From positions 31,722,501 to 31,786,500 of the forward strand of contig NC_088929.1 in assembly GCF_038396675.1 (NCBI RefSeq): a stretch of DNA of 64,000 nt, given 5' to 3'. Under the pieces are notes generated by a model, which ran no database searches, was not told the origin of the DNA, and was given only the letters and a program-made list of their open reading frames with translations. This DNA is from Hydra vulgaris (lineage: Eukaryota; Cnidaria; Hydrozoa; Anthoathecata; Hydridae). Positions within the stretch are counted from its first letter, which is position 1, and each line of letters begins with the position of its first letter. The position numbers were made by a program, and so were the translations under genes. This document shows, one piece after another, positions 183-64,000 of the stretch.

Positions 183-1406
183 TTATAAAATATACCTGTA
201 AGCTTTATCAAAAAATGGATTCCAGATGCATTTATTACTGATGCAAAGTGCTGCTTTATAACCCTTAGCAAATGGATTTCTTGAATTAAGATGGTCGAAA
301 AGCTGATGAATCAATCGTATAAATTTTATTGTAGCTTCACAACCCTTAAATTGTGGTAACTTAAGTTCGGTCCAACAGTATTCGATAGCATCAGCAACAC
401 TAGAACTAAACACTTGAGCTGCAAGGTTAACTTTCATTTTCTGTTGCCTCCAATCTATATGTTGAGATTCAAGTTTATTACCAAGTCTCAGACCCTCCAC
501 ATCTTGAAGGTTGTGTAAATCTTTAATATAATTCCAACATAATTGTTTTTTTTCTGAATCAAACAAAATGCCTTTTTCTGCTAATGTATTTCTCATCAGT
601 TTTAGCATATGACATACATCAAGAAGAACAAAAATTTTTTCATTTGCTATTAGTGGATGTGAAAATGAAGGTACCATTTTAGTAACTTTCAATGCAACCC
701 CAAGTTCTGCTAGCATACTAAAATGGCAAGATGGACCATCACAAGTAATTGATACAACTTTGACACCTGCGTCAGACAAACGCTGAATACAGATTCTAAT
801 GAGATTAGCTCTTTCACTTCCAGTGAGACCATTAATAAAAAAATATCCACATGGAACTTTCCATGAGCTATTAACACATACAACCATAAAAACTAATACA
901 TCCTTTGCTACAGGTGTTGAGTCATCGTCTATATCATAGCCAAGATCATAGTAACCACTGTATTTTTCACCGTCCCATGATATATGTTTTTTAATGCTCA
1001 TTTCACCCAACACGAGAGAGCAAACTACTGTTTTATCTTTACATTTTGCTTCTTCAACTTTTATCTTTATAGCTTCAAATGCAGGTTTTGTAAAACCAGG
1101 ATTCGCATCAATTTTTGCATACCATTTTTGAATGTGTGATTGACAAGGCAAGGCAAAATCAAATGTTTTGCGTACAAACTCGTTTGCTTTTGTAGAATAA
1201 AATTGCAACGTCAATGCAAATGCTTTTACTTCAGGGGGATATTTTTTCCCCTTTTTGGAATGCTTACCAGTAACAATTTTTTGCATAAGTGCTCTTGGTA
1301 CTCCAGAAAATGTCTTTAAAAGCATTTCTTGACAGTTATGGGAAATCATTTTGTTTTTATTCAAACTTTGAACCACAGACTTGATAGAAATTACTGTTTT
1401 TTTCAT
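183..1406 (-). CDS. P-element-like transposase, catalytic part (copy 1)
   Basis: A 407-residue open frame resembling the RNase H-like region of THAP9/P-element transposases. It shares blocks with copy 2 downstream: a CSLV..EMS block (residues 129-137), VSITCDGPS, LLDVCHMLKLMRN (the family D..H..K..RN block), and the MKVNLAAQVFSSSV stretch. In the first block the aspartate expected before EMS is glycine 134 (codon 1005-1007), whereas copy 2 has FDEMS, so this copy is probably catalytically dead. The frame ends just after an AG/GTATAT donor-like site near 195, so the C-terminal exon probably lies beyond the left edge. The N-terminal THAP exons are upstream at 2330-2907. Family assignment is from motif recognition, not a search. 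Confidence 0.75.
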   Translation of the reverse strand: MKKTVISIKSVVQSLNKNKMISHNCQEMLLKTFSGVPRALMQKIVTGKHSKKGKKYPPEVKAFALTLQFYSTKANEFVRKTFDFALPCQSHIQKWYAKIDANPGFTKPAFEAIKIKVEEAKCKDKTVVCSLVLGEMSIKKHISWDGEKYSGYYDLGYDIDDDSTPVAKDVLVFMVVCVNSSWKVPCGYFFINGLTGSERANLIRICIQRLSDAGVKVVSITCDGPSCHFSMLAELGVALKVTKMVPSFSHPLIANEKIFVLLDVCHMLKLMRNTLAEKGILFDSEKKQLCWNYIKDLHNLQDVEGLRLGNKLESQHIDWRQQKMKVNLAAQVFSSSVADAIEYCWTELKLPQFKGCEATIKFIRLIHQLFDHLNSRNPFAKGYKAALCISNKCIWNPFFDKAYRYIL

Positions 1407-1579
1407 TCTGCTACACTTTCATTGAACAATTTTTAGCTTTTTTTTTTAAATGCAAATTTTTTTTTGATGGCTCGTTTCAAGTTTTTTATTTAATTCCATA
1501 TAGCTAGAGCAGCACTCATCCACTATAGTCAATTCTTTGTTTTCATTATGTACTTCAGTTTGCAAATTTATTGCCTATA

Positions 1580-1613
<34 letters not shown>

Positions 1614-1717
1614 TTATACATACATTAATAAATAAATATATTAACTTAAATAAATAAATATATTTTATATTTGTATTTATATGTATATATAATATATACA
1701 TATACATATAAATACAA

Positions 1718-1874
<157 letters not shown>

Positions 1875-2152
1875 TAAATATATACAATATATACATATAC
1901 ATATAAATACAAATATAAAATATATATACATATATATATCATAAATATATTTATTAATTTACTATTTACTATAAACAGCCTCAGAAACCTTTGGGTTGTA
2001 ATACACTAACATTGCCCAACTAATGATTCATACAACAATGTGTAAGCTGTTTACCTTGCAAATATGTTACAAGCCTTAGGCATTTTACAGCGGGTAATTA
2101 AGAATCAAAAGGTGTATACTGATATGTACTTAAATCTAATTATATATTTGTG

Positions 2153-2279
<127 letters not shown>

Positions 2280-2329
2280 GTTTGTGCTTTGCAAACCTTT
2301 TTTAGATGGTCAGGAAACTGTTTAAATCA

Positions 2330-3230: not shown

Positions 3231-5924
3231 ATGCCAGTTTTTCTGTTCAGCCATCAATTGTGTAAACAAACGTGCAAAGAATGTTGAAAACAGTATATCT
3301 TTTTTTAGATTCCCAAACGAGAAAAACAGACAAGTAACTGTTCACTATATTTGATATATTAAAAAAATAAATATATCAAAACTTTAAAGATATTTATAAA
3401 ACAATGTAAATGCATAATATGATGAAAAATATTGATACATAATATGATGGAAATAACTGCAACAAATTTATAAGGTTAACTTTTTTTTAGATGCAAACTT
3501 TGGGTTCATAATTGTCGTCGTCAAGATCTTGATACAAAATCTTGTGAAGAACTTAATCTTAGTTATACGATTTGCAGTGAACATTTTGATTCATCCCAAT
3601 ACTATCTAGCTAACAATGGCAGTAAAATAGTACTTTTAACTGCTGTACCAACAATTTTTAACTTTCCAATTCAACCATCTTCGTTAAATTTAAAGAGAAA
3701 ACAACCAACAAACAGAACTTGTTTACAGGATAAAATACAAAAAAAAAGAAGTCAGTAATACAATTGAATTTAGCGCAAGAAATAGTGTTGATACTACTGG
3801 TACAAATGATATATCAGCTGACAAAACCAATTTTAGAAATAAGTATATGTCATCTCAAGTTAAGATTTTTCGTCTTAAAAAAAAAAATAAAGAACTTACA
3901 GTTAAAGAACAAAATGTTACAAAATTGTGATGGTTCAATAGAACACATAAATTTATCTAAAAAATTCTTAACTACTACCCAGCTACAATTTTTTGAAAGT
4001 CAATTACTTATGAAAAATCGCGTTAAAAAAGGAAATAGTTGGACTGTTAAAGATAAACTGTTATCCTTGAGGATTATATATCACAGTCCACAAACTTTTA
4101 AAAGTGCCAAGATGAGATTTTCATTGCCTGCTAGAAGCACTATTTTAATGTTTCTAGAAAAATCTTTTGGGACCCTAGTATCTGGATTTTCAAATAAGGT
4201 TATGACCTTATTAAAAATGAGAGTTAAAACCATGACAAAAATAGAAAGGAACTGTTCCCTTGTTTTTGATGAAATGTCTTTAAAGCAACATCTGGATTAT
4301 GACAAAAACAGTGACAAGGTTGTTGGAATTCAATCGAATGGTAAACCAGTGAACCAAGTACTTGTATTGATGGTTCGAGGGTTATCAACAAAATGGAAAC
4401 AACCAATTGCTTATTTTTATAGTAATAATGCCATGAGTTCAACCAATTTAGCTAAGATCTTATATAATGCTATGGTTCATCTACATGCAATAGGTTTAGC
4501 TGTAAGATGTCTTGTTTTTGATCAAAGTTCAACTAATATTAGAGCTATTAAATTTCTAGGATTTTCATTATTAAATCAACAAATTTTACATCCAACTACA
4601 AGAGCAAAGGTATATATAATATTTGATCCACCACATCTCATAAAAAGTCAGAAATAATTTAATACAACATGACATTCTGTCTGATGGTAAAATAATCTCG
4701 TGGAAGCATCTGCAAGAGCTCTATAATTTGGAAAAAGTTAATGCTATCCGCCTTGCTCCAAAATTGACAGATTGTCATTTAGATCCAGGATCACAATTAA
4801 CAATGCGAGTAAAGTTGGCAACACAAATTTTTAGTAGTCAAGTTAGTACTGCTTTGAATGTATATGCTTCTACAAAACTATTGCCTGAAAAAGTTTTGTC
4901 TACATCCTTTTTTATTAAAAATATGGATATTTTATTTGACATAATGAATTCTCGTAAACTAATAGCAGATAAACCAACACGTTCTGCTTTAATGTTAAAT
5001 AACAAGTTTATTCAACAACTTGAAGATTTGAGAGTTTGGATTAAGGGGTGGCATTTTTGTGGTGCTCGTAGCCAAAAAGGTCCAGTCATTGGGGTTTAGA
5101 TGTTACTATTTCTAATATTCTTTGTCTCACAAACGAATTGCTTCACGAGGATTTCTTTTATGTTTGCACAGCTCAGTTTAATCAAGACTGTTTTGAAATT
5201 TTTTTTGCATTAATACAAAGCAAAGGAGGTTGGAATGACAGACCAACAGCATTGCAATTTAAATCAGCATATCAAAATGCTTTAGTACTCCTTTCAATAG
5301 AGCAATCTAATTCTAACAGTAATTGTCTCCCAGAATCAGTAATTGTCTCCCAGAATTTTTTGGTTGCAGTTACTGTAGATTCAATTACTAACAAAGTATT
5401 TAAGAACCAAATTTCTGCAAATGAAAAATTGATTTTTAAACAGCCATCTTCATTAACAAAAAAATTACAACCTTGTATTTTACAAAATGTTTCAAGTGAT
5501 TCACTTTCGCAGTCAGTTAAGCAAGTTTTAAAATCGATTGCAGAATATTCAATAAAGAAAGTTCAAATTTGTCAAAAATGTGTCCAAGTTCTTTCAAGTG
5601 TCATATCAAGTGGAATTAACTTATTTAATACTGATTCTTTTTTACAAAACTTGCTTCAAGATATGGATATGTTTTTATAATACAAATCAAAATTTTACTT
5701 ACTAAAAGAAACATCATACAACAAATTATTAATGAAATAAAAAATCATTGCAATTTTAGATTTCTTTTTGATGAACATGTTGATCATGCCTTTCTCTTGA
5801 AAGAAAGTTTAATTAGAAACTTTGTTATTATGAGAATGTCTTATTTTATACGCTTTTATAATCGAGATATACAACCACGAAACAAGGCATGTAAAAAAAA
5901 GTTGGCTCGTATTATTCATGGATA
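3230..5924 (+). pseudogene. P-element-like THAP transposase, broken (copy 2)
   Basis: A decayed two-part gene. Exon 1 (about 3230-3334) encodes the first THAP cysteines and SFFRFPNEK, but its ATG is one frame off, implying a 1-base change in a T run near 3238-3242. Exon 2 (from about 3490) encodes YTICSEHFD (C-x2-H) and AVPTIF, the conserved THAP closing box. The catalytic region (about 3764-4657) keeps FDEMS, VFDQSS and FDPPHLIK. Further pieces at 4660-5099 and 5138-5680 are in other frames; the last includes the P-element C-terminal hallmark GGWNDRPTALQF. A final shifted piece runs to the stop near 5924. With at least four frame changes it cannot make a full protein. It is more complete than copy 1 in its catalytic residues. 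Confidence 0.75.
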
Positions 5925-6379: not shown

Positions 6380-6381
6380 AT

Positions 6382-6459
6382 TCATGATATTCATATGAGC
6401 GCCGAACGTCCGCAAAATTTTATATCCGCCATGATGGGTGGCAAAAATATGTAAACAAA
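6382..6459 (+). repeat. Left terminal inverted repeat, ISL2EU-like
   Basis: Starts TCATGATATTCATATGA and ends in ATGTAAACAAA. It matches the reverse complement of 10080-10157 with a few mismatches (for example in the GAGCGCCGAACG part). The transposase ATG at 6467 lies 8 bp inside it. Confidence 0.9.
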
Positions 6460-6466
6460 AGTAAAA

Positions 6467-8142
6467 ATGGTAAAAAGCTGTTGCGCACCATACTGTGGAA
6501 ACAGAAAAATTAAAGGTAGCACAATTTCTTTTCATAGGTTTCCGAAAGAAGTAGAGCGAAGGGGGTTATGGGTTGCTTTCTTAAAGAGAAAGATTTTGCC
6601 GAATTTGGAGTTTGCTTACATTTGCGGTGAACATTTTATTACTGGTAAGTCAAGTCTTTTTGTATGAATTTATTAAATGTTAAATACATTAACACATGAG
6701 CACTTATAAATTTACATATAAATACATGCATATATAGGTATATATATTTATATACAACAATATATATATATTTATTTATTTTTTATAATAAACATATATA
6801 TGTTTATTTTTTAGGAAGAAAAAATGATGATAAAAATCATGTTGACTATGTTCCTTCCATTAAAAATGTTAACAGAAACAATAAAGGTATACCTATTGAA
6901 TTTAATGACATGTCATGTCATTCATCAAGGAAAATATATTCAGAAAGATCAAATCGTTTAAAGAAGAGGAATGCTGAAAAAGTGCTTATTGAAGAAAATA
7001 GTATTAACAGTTGTTTTCAAGAAGAAATTGTTGAAGAATCCGAAACTATCAAAATTATAAGAGAGTTAAGAGAAGAAAACGAGAAGTTTAAAAATTCAAT
7101 TAAAAAACTAAAAGAAGACAGTAAAGCAGAAATTGAACTTCTTCAAAAGGAAAATATGAAATCTAAATATATTATACAAAAATTAAAAAATGTAAATACT
7201 GCACTCGTCAAGAAAAACAAAAAATTGAAAAATCAAATTGATGAGGCTACTTTTAAACTAATAAAAGACAAAAAGAAAGTTCAATTTTATACAGGTCTTC
7301 CTGATATACATGTTTTTAAACATGTTTTTAACTTAATTGAAAACTACGTGCCAGCTAATAATGCTTCAACTATGACAAAGTTGCAAGAATTTTGTATTGT
7401 TTTAATGAAACTGCGTCTTAATTTGCTGGAACAAGATATAGCGTATAGATTTGGGATAAGTCAACCAACCGTATCACGAATCTTTGAAAAATGGCTTCTT
7501 GTAATGGCACGCAGACTATCCTTTTTAATAAAGTGGCCAGAGAGAGATATATTAAGGAGAACAATGCCAACTTGTTTTCGAGAATTTTTTCCTAAATGTA
7601 TTGTTATTATTGACTGTTTTGAGATTTTTATTGAAAAACCAAAAGATCTGACAGCTAGAGCTCAAACTTTTTCTAAATATAAGCACCATAATACTGTTAA
7701 AGTTTTAATTGGCATTACTCCACAAGGCTCAATATCATTTGTTTCAGAAGCTTGGGGTGGAAGAGTATCTGACGTTTATATTACAGAAAATTCTGGAATA
7801 TTAAATAATTTACTTATTGGAGATCAGGTGTTAGCAGACAGAGGTTTTACAATTGCAGATTCCGTTGGTTTATATTGTGCAGAATTAAAACTTCCTGCTT
7901 TTACACGAGGAAAGTCTCAGTTATCTCAAATAGAAGTTGATTGGACTCGAGAGATTGCCCGTGTACGAATACACGTTGAACGTTTAATTGGGCTCTTAAG
8001 AAATAAATACACAATTTTGCGAGGAATACTTCCTAATAAATTAATCAGTCGAACAGATGATGGAATATGTAAACTAAATGATATTTTAACTGTTTGTTCT
8101 GCTTTATGTAACCTTTGTTGTGGAGTAGTCCCTATTGATTGA
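6467..8142 (+). CDS. THAP/DDE transposase of ISL2EU-like element
   Basis: Two exons, 6467-6644 and 6815-8142, joined by a GTAAGT...TTTTTTAG intron with matching phase (1+2), give an uninterrupted 501-residue protein. Residues 1-75 form a THAP finger: CAPYC, FHRFPKE, then CGEHF and a DYVPSIKN box resembling AVPTIF. Residues about 136-211 are Lys/Glu-rich and predicted coiled coil. Residues about 265-290 (QDIAYRFGISQPTVSRIFEKW) are a helix-turn-helix. The DDE_4-type nuclease follows: D326 in IVIIDCFE, D401 in VLADRGF, E448 in RIHVERLIG. Such proteins bind the terminal repeats and cut and rejoin DNA in the nucleus. This is the only transposase in the window that looks intact. Confidence 0.85.
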
Positions 8143-8200
8143 CTTTTATTTTAATATATAAAAAAAATACATAAATGTAGTGTTATGTTTATTTATTGAT

Positions 8201-10104
8201 TTAAAACTTTTTTTTTTTAATTCTGGTTTTCTTGTGGCAACAATATGGGCAAAACCATTTTCCAATGGGTTTGCTTGTGAGTCCAAGACAATTAAGATGA
8301 TAGGTTTTTATAACGCAAGTTAAATCGAAACATTTAATTATAATACTCTCTTTGATTTTACCGCAAGTACATATTGTTTCAAAATTGTTACTTTGTTTTA
8401 ATTCCCCAATATTTACAAAAGTATTATGATTTCTAGAATACCATTTAGCAAGGAGTTCAGGCAATATCGCTAAGATAAAAAAATCTCTTGCTTTGTTTAA
8501 GTTTTCAGTGAGGAATTCTTTATCAACATAAATTTTTTCAATTAGACTAGCTTCACCATTATACACAATAAAATAACAAATCGGAATATTTGAAATTAAC
8601 ATTCGTAGCTGAACTTGATAATAGTATTGATGATTTCTTTTTAAATAGTCTTTTCCATCCTTTATTTCCATGCAAAACTCTTTAACATTATTTGCCAGTT
8701 CAAAGGCATTTCTTTTTGTGCATTTAAATGGACATTTTATCTCAACTATGTATTCATGAGAACAGCATGTACATTTCATAATACCATCAGGAGTTGCTCC
8801 GAGGTATGGCCATCTGGGTGTTCTAAGCAATCCACAATCAAAATTTTCAACATTTTTGTGAGTTGTTAATAGATGCGATTTTAAACAATTTTTAGCTGCA
8901 ATTTCATTATCACAACCATACTTTGTTGCTTTGGTAATAATTTATTTTGTGATGGATAACATATTTGCATTATTAAATTTTTAGAAGGCATGGCTATATT
9001 TGAATGACAACAAGCTTTAAATTTACTAGCTGTTATAACCCCAGCACGTGCTCTAAACCATAAACTTGATTGGGATTGATTTTTTGTATGATCTGAAATC
9101 AATTTAATTTCATCTTCAGTTATTTTTATATCTAAAAAAGTTTTATTTGAAAGTTGCACGAGTTCATGATACTTTAATTGTTCATATTCTCTTTTGTAAA
9201 AGTTAAAAATGATTGTATTAAGTTTTGCAACTAAAGGTATATATTTATAACTATATTCAGGAATTATACGAAGAATTACACTATCTCTTGCATTATATGA
9301 TATTTTACTGTAAAAGTTAGCAATTTCTGATTTACTTGGAATTGGAACGGATGAGGCTTTTTCGATATAAGGTTTTGCTCGTGTTTTGTTCTTTACTTTT
9401 GCTTCAAATTTTTTTTTAGGAACGGTAAAATTAATTTGTGAAAGTGGCAAATAAGTAACTTCCTTAAGGTTTGGCGGCAACCAAGCACATAATTGAGATG
9501 TACAAGCATCATCGTTATTTCTTTTCCGATAATCAGATGTTAACATTAAATAAAATAATGTTGCTCCAATATGAGAACAGACTTCGCCTAAACCTGCCTT
9601 ACATGTGCAATGTGCATTTATAACTTCACCATCTCCTTGAATGCTAACCCATACCCTTGTTGGAGTTTTAGAAAAAATGCTCTGACCATGTCTTACACGA
9701 CTGGTAACAATATATATAGACTTTACACCATGAATGAACTTTACAAGAACGTTGTGAACAAGACCACTAGTTACATAGTTGTAAGACTCAAGACCTTTGT
9801 AAGATTTTAAACTAGAACTTGTAAACTGACTAGGAAAGTTGATTAGATAGCTGTATATATCAGCAAAAGTTAAATTAGACCATTCGTCTACGTTATTAGT
9901 TAGTTCACAGTCTTTTTCTGATAAAGAATACGGGTCAAAAATAATCTCTAAAACTGATAATTTTTCTTCGTATCTCTTTTTTGCTTCCAAATTAAGACTC
10001 TCGTAATACTGCGATCGCATAATTGTAAGCAAAGAAGAATTTAAATCAATTACAACAGATCGGCTTTTTGTATCTAATATTTGTTTACATTTTTTTGCCA
10101 CCCA
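8201..10104 (-). pseudogene. SWIM-YqaJ-PHD nuclease protein, one frameshift
   Basis: Upstream part (8881-10104): an unrecognised N-terminal region followed by a SWIM zinc finger, INAHCTCKAGLGEVCSHIGA (CxC...CxH). Downstream part (8201 to about 8930): a YqaJ/lambda-exonuclease-type domain with TKYGCDNEIAAKNCL, GATPDGI, and VEIKCPF, so the D...E-x-K metal-binding residues are present, then a C-terminal PHD-like finger (CTCGKIKE...HLNC...WFCPYCC). The two parts are in different frames; the shift lies near 8930-8938, just before TKYG. No ATG opens the frame near the 5' end (the first is at 10018-10020); upstream codons read into the terminal repeat. A YqaJ nuclease is thought to help the transposase in this group; its exact role is unknown to me. 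Confidence 0.8.
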
Positions 10105-10157
10105 TCATGGCGGATACAAAGTTTTGCGGACGTTTGGAGTTCATATGAATATCATGA
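10080..10157 (-). repeat. Right terminal inverted repeat, ISL2EU-like
   Basis: Reverse complement of the left terminal repeat, ending TCATATGAATATCATGA, followed by AT. It overlaps the 5' end of the nuclease open frame. Confidence 0.9.
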
Positions 10158-10159
10158 AT

Positions 10160-11254: not shown

Positions 11255-12990
11255 TTAACAGTCAACTTCACATAGTTCGCATTCATAATAACGCTTCTTG
11301 CTGTTATTATTACAATTGCCACATATCCACCATTGACAAGTAAAACACTGAATCCAAGCAGGCCCAAAGAAATTTTTCCAGTTGCATTTGCATATTTTGC
11401 AAGTATTTTGCTGTTGTTGGTTTACGGGTTCATTTTTTACAGATGACACAAAAAATCTGCATTAGAGTTTTCTGTTTCTTTCACTCTATTGAGGTCAATT
11501 TTTCTTTTTCGATTTTGTGTGTTAATTTAACCAGTTTCAAAAATTTTCCTCTTATCTACTGTCTTTTCTGGAGTTTTAGTTAATATAGTACTTTTACCCT
11601 GCTGTCTTCTTTTTTTAGAATCTTTTCTTGGGGGTGCTTTAGGGTACGGATGAATGGTTTCTGGACTAACTATTTTGACTGATGATTCTGAAGAATCAGC
11701 TTGTTTATTTTTTTTATATGATTGTTGATTATCTGGTTGTTTATTTTCTGGTTGCTCGACAGGAAGAGGTCTGTCACTAACACTAGATGATATGAAATCA
11801 CTTTCCCCAAATATTTGTCTATTAAGTGGATAGATCCCACATTTAGAAAATCCACTGCAAGCATATTTTATTGTGAATGACATATTATATGTTCTGCATG
11901 CTAGCTGAGGTAAATTATATATGTTAATAATTCTCCCTGGATTGGAGGCCAACCATTCATTCTGAGCCAATCTAAAATAAGATTTAAAAGAACCAAACAC
12001 CGAAACATCCAAAAGCTGCAATCTATGACTGCAGTGTAATGGAAATGTTAATAAAATCAAAAAGTTTTCTTTTGCAAATTTTATTGTTTCAAATGAAATG
12101 TGGCTTTCGTGGTTGTCCATTAATAACAGCACTGGATGATCCACAGATGGCTTAGCATGGGAAACAAAGTGCTTCATTGCAACTTAAGAGTTCTCACTTG
12201 TCATCCAACCATTTTTGTTACACAGCCCTAAGCTTCCTGTTGGGGCTCCACTTATCATAAAATCCTTGTAGTTTACTCTCGGAAATATAAAGACAGGTGG
12301 AACTGTATTACCCATAGCATTCACAAAAGCTAACATTGTCACCAATGAACCTCTTTCTGCTGGAACAGCTTGTGATACCCTTTTAGTTCCACGAGTTGAA
12401 ATAATCTTTGGAGGATTGGTTACTGTTAATAATCTTGTCTCATCTGCATTAAAAATACATTCTGGTTTGAATTTATATTTTAATTGAACTTCTGACAAGT
12501 TATCAAAAAACATTGATACCGTATGTTCATTAAATGCAGTTGCACGAGCAAGACAAACTTTTTCTGGCTTACGTAGTGATAATTTTGGATGTCGTATCAA
12601 AAAACTTTCCAACCATTGCTTTCCAGCCATTTTATTTTGGTGCCATGACTCTGGAATACTTTTAAAATTTAATGCAATTCCATACTTGTAGGCTAACTGC
12701 CTAGTTTGTAATTTAGTTAAACTATAGCACATATTTGAAGATGTATGCAAATAATCTGCAATAGCACTTTCCTCGGACGCATGAAATATTTTTCTATTTC
12801 CAATGTTTACAGTGTGTTTATAGTCTGGCAGCTTTTGATATCTTGCCATTTTAACAGCTCTACCTAATGCAGATTTTGATAAACTATATGTTTCAGCTGC
12901 ATCTCGTATGGAAATACCCTTAAGAACACTTTTGACTGCATCTTCAACATCTAAAGAGTTTTTACATATAAATTTTGTGTTTGGTTTCAT
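11255..12990 (-). pseudogene. pogo-like transposase, in-frame stop and shift
   Basis: N-terminal part (12184-12990): a psq-type helix-turn-helix (GISIRDAAETYSLSKSALGR), a CENP-B-type second DNA-binding domain, and the first catalytic aspartate in FNADET. A TAA at 12184-12186 interrupts the same frame, which resumes at 12177 with LLLMDNHESH (second Asp) and LQLLDVSVFGSFK (third Asp): the DDD pattern expected for pogo. After a further stop at about 11528 and a frame change near 11450, a C-terminal zinc finger (CKICKCNW...WIQCFTC..WWICGNC...CELC) is encoded at 11255-11449. The upstream ATG follows a TTTTATTTTAG acceptor-like site, so a 5' exon is possible. The protein would bind the element ends; this copy is inactive. 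Confidence 0.8.
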
Positions 12991-22250: not shown

Positions 22251-61204
<38,954 letters not shown>

Positions 61205-62432: not shown

Positions 62433-64000
62433 TTACGACCATTTAGCAAGCTCCGCTTGCAAAGTTTTTTGCATCACATCTTCTTGAGTTTCATCAAAAT
62501 CCCAGTCTTGAACACTCAACACACGCTTTCCTACAGTTTCTTCCATACTATCAAAAGCGCACGTCATTTTCCAATATTTATCAAGAGATTTTTCTAAAGC
62601 TAATAACTTATTTTCGATGTCGTGGTCGGAGTGATGTTTGTTTATTAAATGAGCATTAGATTTATTCTTGTAATGTTTCTGTATATTGTTAGATGGTTCT
62701 GATTCACTTAGGTTTTCCATCGCCATATTAACGACTCCAATTTCTTCTGGTGCTTCAGATTGTGGGTCGCGACTTATTAACTTTAAAAACTTCTTGATCA
62801 TAAAGTCGACGATTTCGTACTTTTGACTTGTCATCGAAAGATCTTTGTTAACCGATGCGTAAGTTTCCATGACAATTGTTAAAAAAACATTCATGATATA
62901 CATTACACCAAAAATCATGATTAAAGTAAACCATAAAGAGCCCAAAACAGGTTTTGCAGATACGATGTCCTTAAACTTAAAACTACCCAATAGCAACGAC
63001 ATCACTGACTCAGAGGCAGAAATGTAGTTACTATACTCTGGAAGATACGGAATAAACATCAAATAAGCCCACGCTGTAAATGACGTAAAAAATATTACAA
63101 ATATTAAAAGAAATGCAGCAAGAGGGCTAGCACTTTTTTTAAGAGTCAAAACAAAAACGGAAATAGTTTTGTTATATTGAAGAATGCGAATAGACTTGAT
63201 GCAAGTCAACAATACCAAAACTGACGTTAAGCCAGAAAAAAGTTGATCCCATTGCACAATTCTGTTGAAACTCACAAATTTTTTTTGCTCTTCATGAATG
63301 CTTTTAACAGCCTTCTTTACTAACATAACTCGTGAAAAAAAGACACCAGTCGTAATAAGCAACAGAATTATGAGAAAAAACTCATAAAGATTCCAGAATC
63401 CTGAAAATTATATGATTATATATCATACGAATCATACCATTAAATTATGTGTGTGTGTGAATATATATATGTGCATTTGGTACTTGCCACATGTGAAAAT
63501 CCCAATTTATGTAGATGTGGGCCATGTATGGGTATGGTATTTATAGTACTTCAGTGGTATAAGTATTATAGCCACATGTGGGCCATAAGTGGCTACCACC
63601 TAAGTAGTATAAATACCATAGCCACACACGGCCAACATAGCCATCCCATAAATCAACTGTGGCTTTCATTTAATGACACATGTGTTCCACATCAAATTTT
63701 CTTTGTTGGGAGATTTTAAAATGTGCATAATTTCATAAAATGATGGGTTAGATTTAAGGTATAATTCAAAGTCTTAAAAAAACTAATAATTAATAAATAA
63801 ATTAATAAATATATAACAATTAATATTATTAATAAATTAATAAACATAAATACCTCTGAAATACAATTTTTTCATTTTGTAAATTTTCTTTGCTTCTTTA
63901 TACATCGCAATAAGAAAAAAGAAAACAACAAATACTTGACACACCAGAGTTAAAGTTGCTGTTTCACCAGCAAACGTGTACAATCTAGCAATATGTATGC
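62433..64000 (-). CDS. Polycystin-1-like channel protein, last two exons (partial)
   Basis: Exons 63854-64000 (runs off the window edge) and 62433-63400, joined with matching phase across a GT-AG intron. The join reads LYFRG-FWNLYEFFLIILLL, the conserved FWN.E block of polycystins. Then TM segments LFSGLTSVLVLLTCIKSIRI, PLAAFLLIFVIFFTSFTAWA (S5), the pore region ASESVMSLLLGSFKF, PVLGSLWFTLIMIFGVMYIM (S6), and QKYEIVDFMIKKF, which fits the PKD1/PKD1L branch better than PKD2. A cytoplasmic tail of about 130 residues with a possible coiled coil (NKLLALEKSLDKYW) ends AELAKWS, stop TAA at 62433-62435. Role: cation channel subunit in plasma or ciliary membrane; the exact paralogue is not resolved. 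Confidence 0.85.
63517..63639. repeat. Fold-back repeat in polycystin intron
   Basis: GTGGGCCATGTATGGGTATG... (63517-63558) pairs with ...ACCATAGCCACACACGGCC (63596-63639), with some mismatches; GCCACATGTGG also repeats in the loop. Confidence 0.75.

Follow-up and report, generated by a model that had tools for sequence, protein, structure and literature searches.

DNA transposons of the ISL2EU group have been described as duplicating the dinucleotide AT at their target, encoding a THAP-helix-turn-helix (HTH)-DDE transposase, and carrying a second open reading frame (ORF) with a YqaJ domain, with groups defined by their duplications; terminal repeats that begin with GG, an A-AT-T target, and a mean length of about 4.8 kb are usual for ISL2EU elements but do not define the group, according to the available portion of that survey (PMC4482050; Han et al., 2015). 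Proteins encoded beside a transposase can serve it in other ways. As the accessible parts of the respective sources have it, the Myb-like second protein of PIF/Harbinger elements attaches to the repeats and helps with import into the nucleus (PMC9179366), and RAG2, a six-bladed propeller, has a PHD finger that binds trimethylated histone H3 lysine 4 (H3K4me3), a finger that ProtoRAG lacks (PMC8355894). Here, we analyze a 64,000-nucleotide stretch of the Hydra vulgaris genome, called the window below (contig NC_088929.1 of assembly GCF_038396675.1, positions 31,722,501–31,786,500 of the forward strand). Positions 6382–10157 of the window hold a two-gene DNA transposon, in which the gene for a THAP-HTH-DDE transposase faces a gene for a protein with SWIM, YqaJ, and PHD parts. 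Our preferred reading, which we judge rather probable, is that this element, a cut-and-paste transposon, belongs to the ISL2EU group within the PHIS superfamily, that it has recently increased in copy number in its host, and that its second protein acts as an accessory nuclease.

A transposase gene facing a nuclease gene

The first-pass annotation, made from the sequence alone, had described a two-gene element with 78-bp inverted repeats and convergent genes, and repeat comparison, Pfam matches, and open frames all agreed with this description. The arms at 6380–6459 and 10080–10159 are 80 nt long and 93% complementary if the flanking AT dinucleotides are counted; without them, the inverted repeats are 78 nt long and 92.3% complementary, and AT is the 2-bp target duplication. 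The proposed THAP/DDE transposase was confirmed by Pfam matches to THAP (6e-13) in the first exon and to HTH_Tnp_4 (3.3e-18) and DDE_Tnp_4 (8.9e-50) in the second, and the predicted splice would join these exons into a 501-residue protein with D326, D401, and E448. Likewise, the AT duplications, the domains, and the YqaJ-bearing second ORF bear out the proposed pairing of transposase and YqaJ nuclease as that of ISL2EU. The window element differs from described ISL2EU elements in repeats that start with TC or CC instead of GG, in its length of 3.8 kb compared to a mean of about 4.8 kb, and in its SWIM and PHD parts, neither of which is mentioned in the available portion of PMC4482050. Our literature searches found no account of SWIM or PHD in ISL2EU elements, which is weak evidence, as most subscription papers and Repbase lay outside their scope. 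The accessible part of PMC9179366 has no mention of SWIM and one of "PHD", in a context outside that part, and that of PMC12730594 refers to ISL2EU without any mention of YqaJ, SWIM, or PHD.

For the second protein, the first-pass annotation had proposed a SWIM finger, a YqaJ nuclease, and a C-terminal PHD-like finger, and had named Pfam as the place to look for them. The YqaJ and PHD parts stood. One window frame matched Pfam YqaJ (2.4e-7) and the other matched Viral_alk_exo (1.9e-4), and the best PDB match of the finger was the PHD of ING4 (4.6e-12), although its Pfam match (PHD-1st_NSD, 6.3e-4) fell below the curated cut-off. By contrast, Pfam SWIM gave no match at E ≤ 1 in the window frames and no significant match in an uninterrupted nuclease frame from another copy; its single weak match (E 0.053) was in a divergent locus, L047. 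We therefore dropped SWIM as a Pfam-supported domain and retained it as a motif call. The element had also been called complete, which holds for its anatomy but not for its nuclease gene, as the nuclease domain of the window copy is divided between two overlapping minus-strand frames. Three other copies (L009, L013, and L014) carry this gene as a single 637-codon frame, stop to stop, and the frameshift is thus no family-wide feature; the uninterrupted nuclease frame of another copy matched Pfam YqaJ at 8e-15.

The left inverted repeat matched 40 places in the host genome (911,502,276 bases in 15 contigs, AT-rich with 28.5% GC), which form 15 opposite pairs, including the window element, and 10 single ends. 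We examined the window element, the 14 other paired loci, and six of the 10 single ends. Eight loci (L009–L014, L022, and L024) matched the window element at 98–99% identity along most of their aligned length, with stretches at 95.5% and 96.4% identity in L012, and older copies were mostly 82–91% identical. AT was present on both sides in 11 of the 13 copies for which both ends were mapped, a count that includes the window copy and has L009 and L017 as its exceptions; the left repeat was only partial in L021 and L022, and the L023 pair spanned 7.7 kb. Retention of the SWIM and PHD parts among copies was the test that the first-pass annotation had set, and all 15 paired copies, again counting the window copy, kept at least a remnant of both, although the SWIM ligands were not found in L018 and L021 and the PHD was shortened in L010. 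Of all 21 loci tested, 18 had SWIM and 17 had PHD, and two of the six single ends examined (L025 and L026) had no trace of the nuclease gene, neither SWIM nor PHD. L018 and L021 (host C15, 30.58 and 31.24 Mb) have common flanks and the same internal deletion and are probably one duplicated locus.

Pairing of the two genes extends well beyond this family. In host searches with a nuclease piece and a DDE piece, we scored the best 150 of 903 and the best 150 of 1272 candidates, respectively, and removal of seven second pieces left 143 YqaJ places. A DDE place lay within 6 kb of 70 of these 143, among the best matches listed, compared to 0.3 pairs expected under uniform placement, and all 70 pairs were convergent (tail to tail). 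Hence, a convergent transposase/nuclease pair is a general design in the host genome. The protein alignment at the 143 places stopped before the PHD in 71, ran through it in 62, and was partial in 10, a count that is too low for PHD, as L059 has this finger even though its alignment stopped earlier. When the L048 nuclease, which has no PHD, served as the query against the host genome, 95 matches resulted.

Fixed and variable parts of the second protein

We compared a hand-chosen, non-random sample of divergent YqaJ loci, 12 that span 3 kb and 20 that span about 1 kb, some of which belong to one family. First, G397, E401, A404, D440, E455, K457, and Q497 were invariant in all 15 aligned nuclease ORFs, every one of which matched Pfam YqaJ, and the same residues occur in the window frames, as the first-pass annotation had claimed for an intact D...E-x-K. 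Second, the full SWIM motif was present in seven of the 12 longer loci, both with and without PHD; in four others the frame starts at the second half of the motif, and in one the motif was unseen. The four ligands of the CxCxnCxH SWIM pattern were identical in all eight aligned rows, which had been selected for holding the motif. Third, a PHD with all zinc ligands was found in 14 of the 32 loci and a PHD judged by eye to be damaged in five more (L041, L056, L058, L066, and L068), or 19 altogether; in the remaining 13 it was unseen within the stretch examined, and some of these may encode it on a later exon. SWIM and PHD had both been regarded as additions to the nuclease, and it is only PHD that proved to be a variable part, whereas SWIM, shared by families with and without PHD, is no special addition. 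Finally, on a nuclease tree of 31 rows (L051, L066, and L069 dropped), PHD presence required five changes, fewer than in any of 500 shuffles. This count of five speaks against a single PHD gain, although weak forks still allow one gain followed by losses.

Two loci have additional features. L050 encodes a SWIM-YqaJ protein in which PHD was unseen and which has an N-terminal SAP domain (5.1e-7) at the start of ORF 548–2281 (+); it was the only one of 15 proteins scanned with SAP. L083 (host C4:8112800-8118300) contains an exact 1536-bp inverted duplication (1191–2726 and 3326–4861) in which the end of a YqaJ-PHD gene is present twice and which may be a recent event or an assembly artefact.

In fold and in its catalytic E, D, E-x-K, and Q residues, the window nuclease resembles lambda exonuclease, YqaJ, and baculovirus alkaline exonuclease. 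The best PDB fold matches of an AlphaFold2 model of the nuclease protein were LHK-Exo (1.4e-9) and lambda exonuclease (1.1e-8), the best viral structure matches were baculovirus alkaline exonucleases, and ING PHD structures matched at E values of 0.004–0.016, with template-modeling scores of 0.59–0.84 of the target. The predicted local distance difference test score (pLDDT) of this model averaged 62.3 and, in ten-residue blocks, was 66–97 over residues 301–550 and 59–79 over most of the PHD. A tblastn search of plasmids and phages with one query protein (P0003) found no relatives, and two single-protein queries confirmed none in viral contigs. A search of the viral contigs with an alignment found eight free-standing phage-type nucleases, which differ from the window protein in being about 290 residues long and in having neither SWIM nor PHD motif. 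In the accessible part of a clam genome paper, expansions of YqaJ and of herpesvirus alkaline exonuclease domains are assigned to endogenous viral elements (PMC7826175); these expansions may be ISL2EU nuclease genes.

The window finger resembles ING PHD fingers in its C4HC3 zinc ligand spacing, its GKWFCPxC end, and its 42% identity to ING4. A search of the host genome with the ING4 finger found 148 places, many of which coincide with YqaJ places. The best match, at 72% identity, lies in a 317-codon frame (L085, host C12:54348700-54350200) that probably is an ordinary ING gene; this one strong ING-like frame stands against many ING-type fingers that are, at least partly, in transposons. Repeated 112-residue PHD frames were considered as another kind of element, an idea rejected for L086, where a YqaJ piece lies just upstream and the repeated frame is the end of another YqaJ-PHD gene. 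Fifteen transposon fingers share only 28–46% identity with the host ING finger, whereas identity between the host finger and that of human ING4 is 73%, which suggests that capture of the PHD is probably old.

Met is one of the residues of the ING methyl-lysine cage. According to the available portions of two studies, Tyr, Ser, and Trp are others, a change of the Trp in ING3 abolishes histone binding, the Tyr of the ING3 cage is dispensable (PMC5846061), and Y198 is a cage residue of ING4 (PMC8123807). The Tyr, Ser, Met, and Trp of the ING4 cage are replaced by Ile, Lys, Ile, and Thr in the window family, and the absence of this cage makes H3K4me3 reading by its PHD unlikely. The L039 type has lost the cage as well. 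By contrast, Tyr/Phe, Met, and Trp were kept in six of 15 transposon fingers (L043, L044, L045, L046, L065, and L086). As judged from these residues, the "chromatin-reading" label that the finger had been given suits some families better than the window family. Ratios of nonsynonymous to synonymous substitution (dN/dS) for the PHD cover three pairs only and were evaluated by Fisher tests on rounded counts; the L044/L045 pair had a ratio of 0.29 (p 0.004) and the L039/L040 pair one of 0.24 (p 0.028). Signs of purifying selection on the PHD are thus seen in two of the three pairs measured.

Feature coordinates and neighboring sequences

Table 1. Features of the ISL2EU-type element in window coordinates.
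Feature	Position	Strand	Basis or remark
ISL2EU-type transposon, two genes	6382–10157		Convergent genes; 78-nt terminal inverted repeats and AT duplications
AT target-site duplication, left	6380–6381	none	AT flanks repeat
Left terminal inverted repeat, 78 nt	6382–6459	+	Repeat comparison; 40 matching places in host genome
Transposase exon 1, THAP zinc finger	6467–6644	+	Pfam THAP 6e-13
Predicted intron, GTAAGT...TTTTTTAG, 170 nt	6645–6814	+	GT-AG; inferred from sequence
Transposase exon 2, HTH_Tnp_4 and DDE_Tnp_4	6815–8142	+	Pfam
Nuclease gene 3' frame, YqaJ catalytic part and C-terminal PHD	8201–8941	-	Open frames, Pfam, PDB match
ING-type PHD finger	8240–8371	-	Cage positions I, K, I, T
Nuclease active-site motifs	8609–8917	-	G..E..A 8917–8894, D 8797–8783, E-x-K 8743–8729, Q 8626–8609
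Overlap of both nuclease frames, place of frameshift in window copy	8881–8941	-	Open-frame list
Nuclease gene 5' frame, SWIM motif and nuclease domain start	8881–10104	-	First ATG at 10020
SWIM motif CTCKAGLGEVCSH	9571–9609 (9609–9571)	-	Motif read in frame
Right terminal inverted repeat, 78 nt	10080–10157	-	Repeat comparison
AT target-site duplication, right	10158–10159	none	AT flanks repeat

The window contains sequences of other mobile elements. P-element-like transposases with TNP-like RNaseH and GTP-binding domains occur at 186–1418 (-) and 3734–5677 (+), the latter in three frames and just upstream of the ISL2EU element. Frames with DDE_1 and HTH_psq at 11530–12990 (-) mark a further DNA transposon remnant, which we take to be pogo-like; a copia-type polyprotein (RVT_2 and integrase) lies at 38913–41135 (-), and a separate RVT_1 reverse transcriptase is found at 50743–51357 (-). 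A polycystin cation channel frame at 62436–63407 (-) probably is a host gene.

Possible roles of the nuclease and its PHD finger

In the mechanism that we propose, the THAP domain would recognize the repeats and the transposase would then cut. The second protein would be an accessory factor whose SWIM finger would bind DNA and whose YqaJ nuclease would process DNA at the element ends or at the broken donor site, and such processing would favor repair outcomes in which the element is retained or copied. The PHD would be an optional guide that tethers the second protein to chromatin or to a protein partner; the partner in families with an intact cage probably is methylated H3K4, and the window-family finger probably has a structural or protein-binding role only. 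Both the convergent pairing and the conserved active site argue for an accessory nuclease that acts with the transposase on DNA ends.

Several results weigh against this reading. First, the repeats do not have the usual GG start, and an A-AT-T target was found in only two of the 11 copies with AT on both sides, the window target being A-AT-A. Second, none of the 15 copies with frames listed has both genes fully open, and copies with an open nuclease frame have an interrupted transposase exon. Third, 73 of the 143 YqaJ places have no DDE place within 6 kb among the matches listed, the best ~150 for each search. Fourth, the SWIM motif lacks a Pfam match in the window frames and was modeled poorly (pLDDT of about 50), which makes its modeled beta-beta-alpha unit a hint at most. 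Finally, the ING cage is replaced in the window family, and the third PHD pair, L045/L067, gave a dN/dS of 0.73 on four changes. The lack of a copy in which both genes are open counts somewhat against the accessory-nuclease reading and somewhat for a PHD without function, the last alternative considered below, as does the fact that close identity among recent copies does not attest to selection.

One alternative, which we regard as unlikely, is that the second protein assists the transposase chiefly by binding DNA or chromatin, with nuclease activity secondary. The available part of PMC9179366 describes such a partner in the Myb-like PIF/Harbinger protein, which binds repeats and aids nuclear import, and SWIM together with PHD or SAP would supply binding modules; a pure binding role, however, would not require the catalytic residues to be invariant, as they are in all 15 ORFs. 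Somewhat less likely still is a nuclease that is dispensable for transposition and shields the element against the host, perhaps through degradation of competing DNA or of intermediates in silencing, with the PHD placing it at certain copies. Here, the strictly conserved active site would be expected, and the eight free-standing relatives in viral contigs indicate that the enzyme can serve without a transposase, but the convergent arrangement with the transposase gene is at least as compatible with an integral role. Least probable, in our estimation, is a PHD that is a passive, functionless leftover of host gene capture. In favor of this alternative, the PHD was unseen in 13 and damaged in five of the 32 divergent loci, lost its methyl-lysine cage in the window family, and shows little constraint in the L045/L067 pair; against it, the PHD kept all zinc ligands in 14 of the 32 and had dN/dS values of 0.24–0.29 in two pairs.

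The accessory-nuclease reading can be extended, tentatively and as a possibility that may well prove wrong, to a modular guidance nuclease. The ISL2EU second protein would have a SWIM-YqaJ core that gained and lost binding modules, a C-terminal ING-type PHD in many families and an N-terminal SAP in at least one PHD-less family; where the cage is intact, the protein would direct repair or insertion toward active chromatin and so parallel the RAG2 PHD independently, and families that lost the cage would have switched targets. RAG differs from ISL2EU in its transposase type and in its partner, RAG2 being a six-bladed propeller and not a nuclease, and no RAG2-like beta-propeller family was among the Pfam matches listed for the proteins scanned here. 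Like the ISL2EU genes, RAG1/RAG2 and ProtoRAG are transposon-derived gene pairs, and a partner protein can have a PHD, according to the accessible part of PMC8355894.

A phage-type exonuclease accompanies the transposase of ISL2EU elements, and the families of the host genome, which differ in PHD, cage, and SAP, amount to a collection of natural mutants. Should the PHD prove to guide the element, ISL2EU would join RAG as a second example of a DDE transposase that its partner couples to chromatin.

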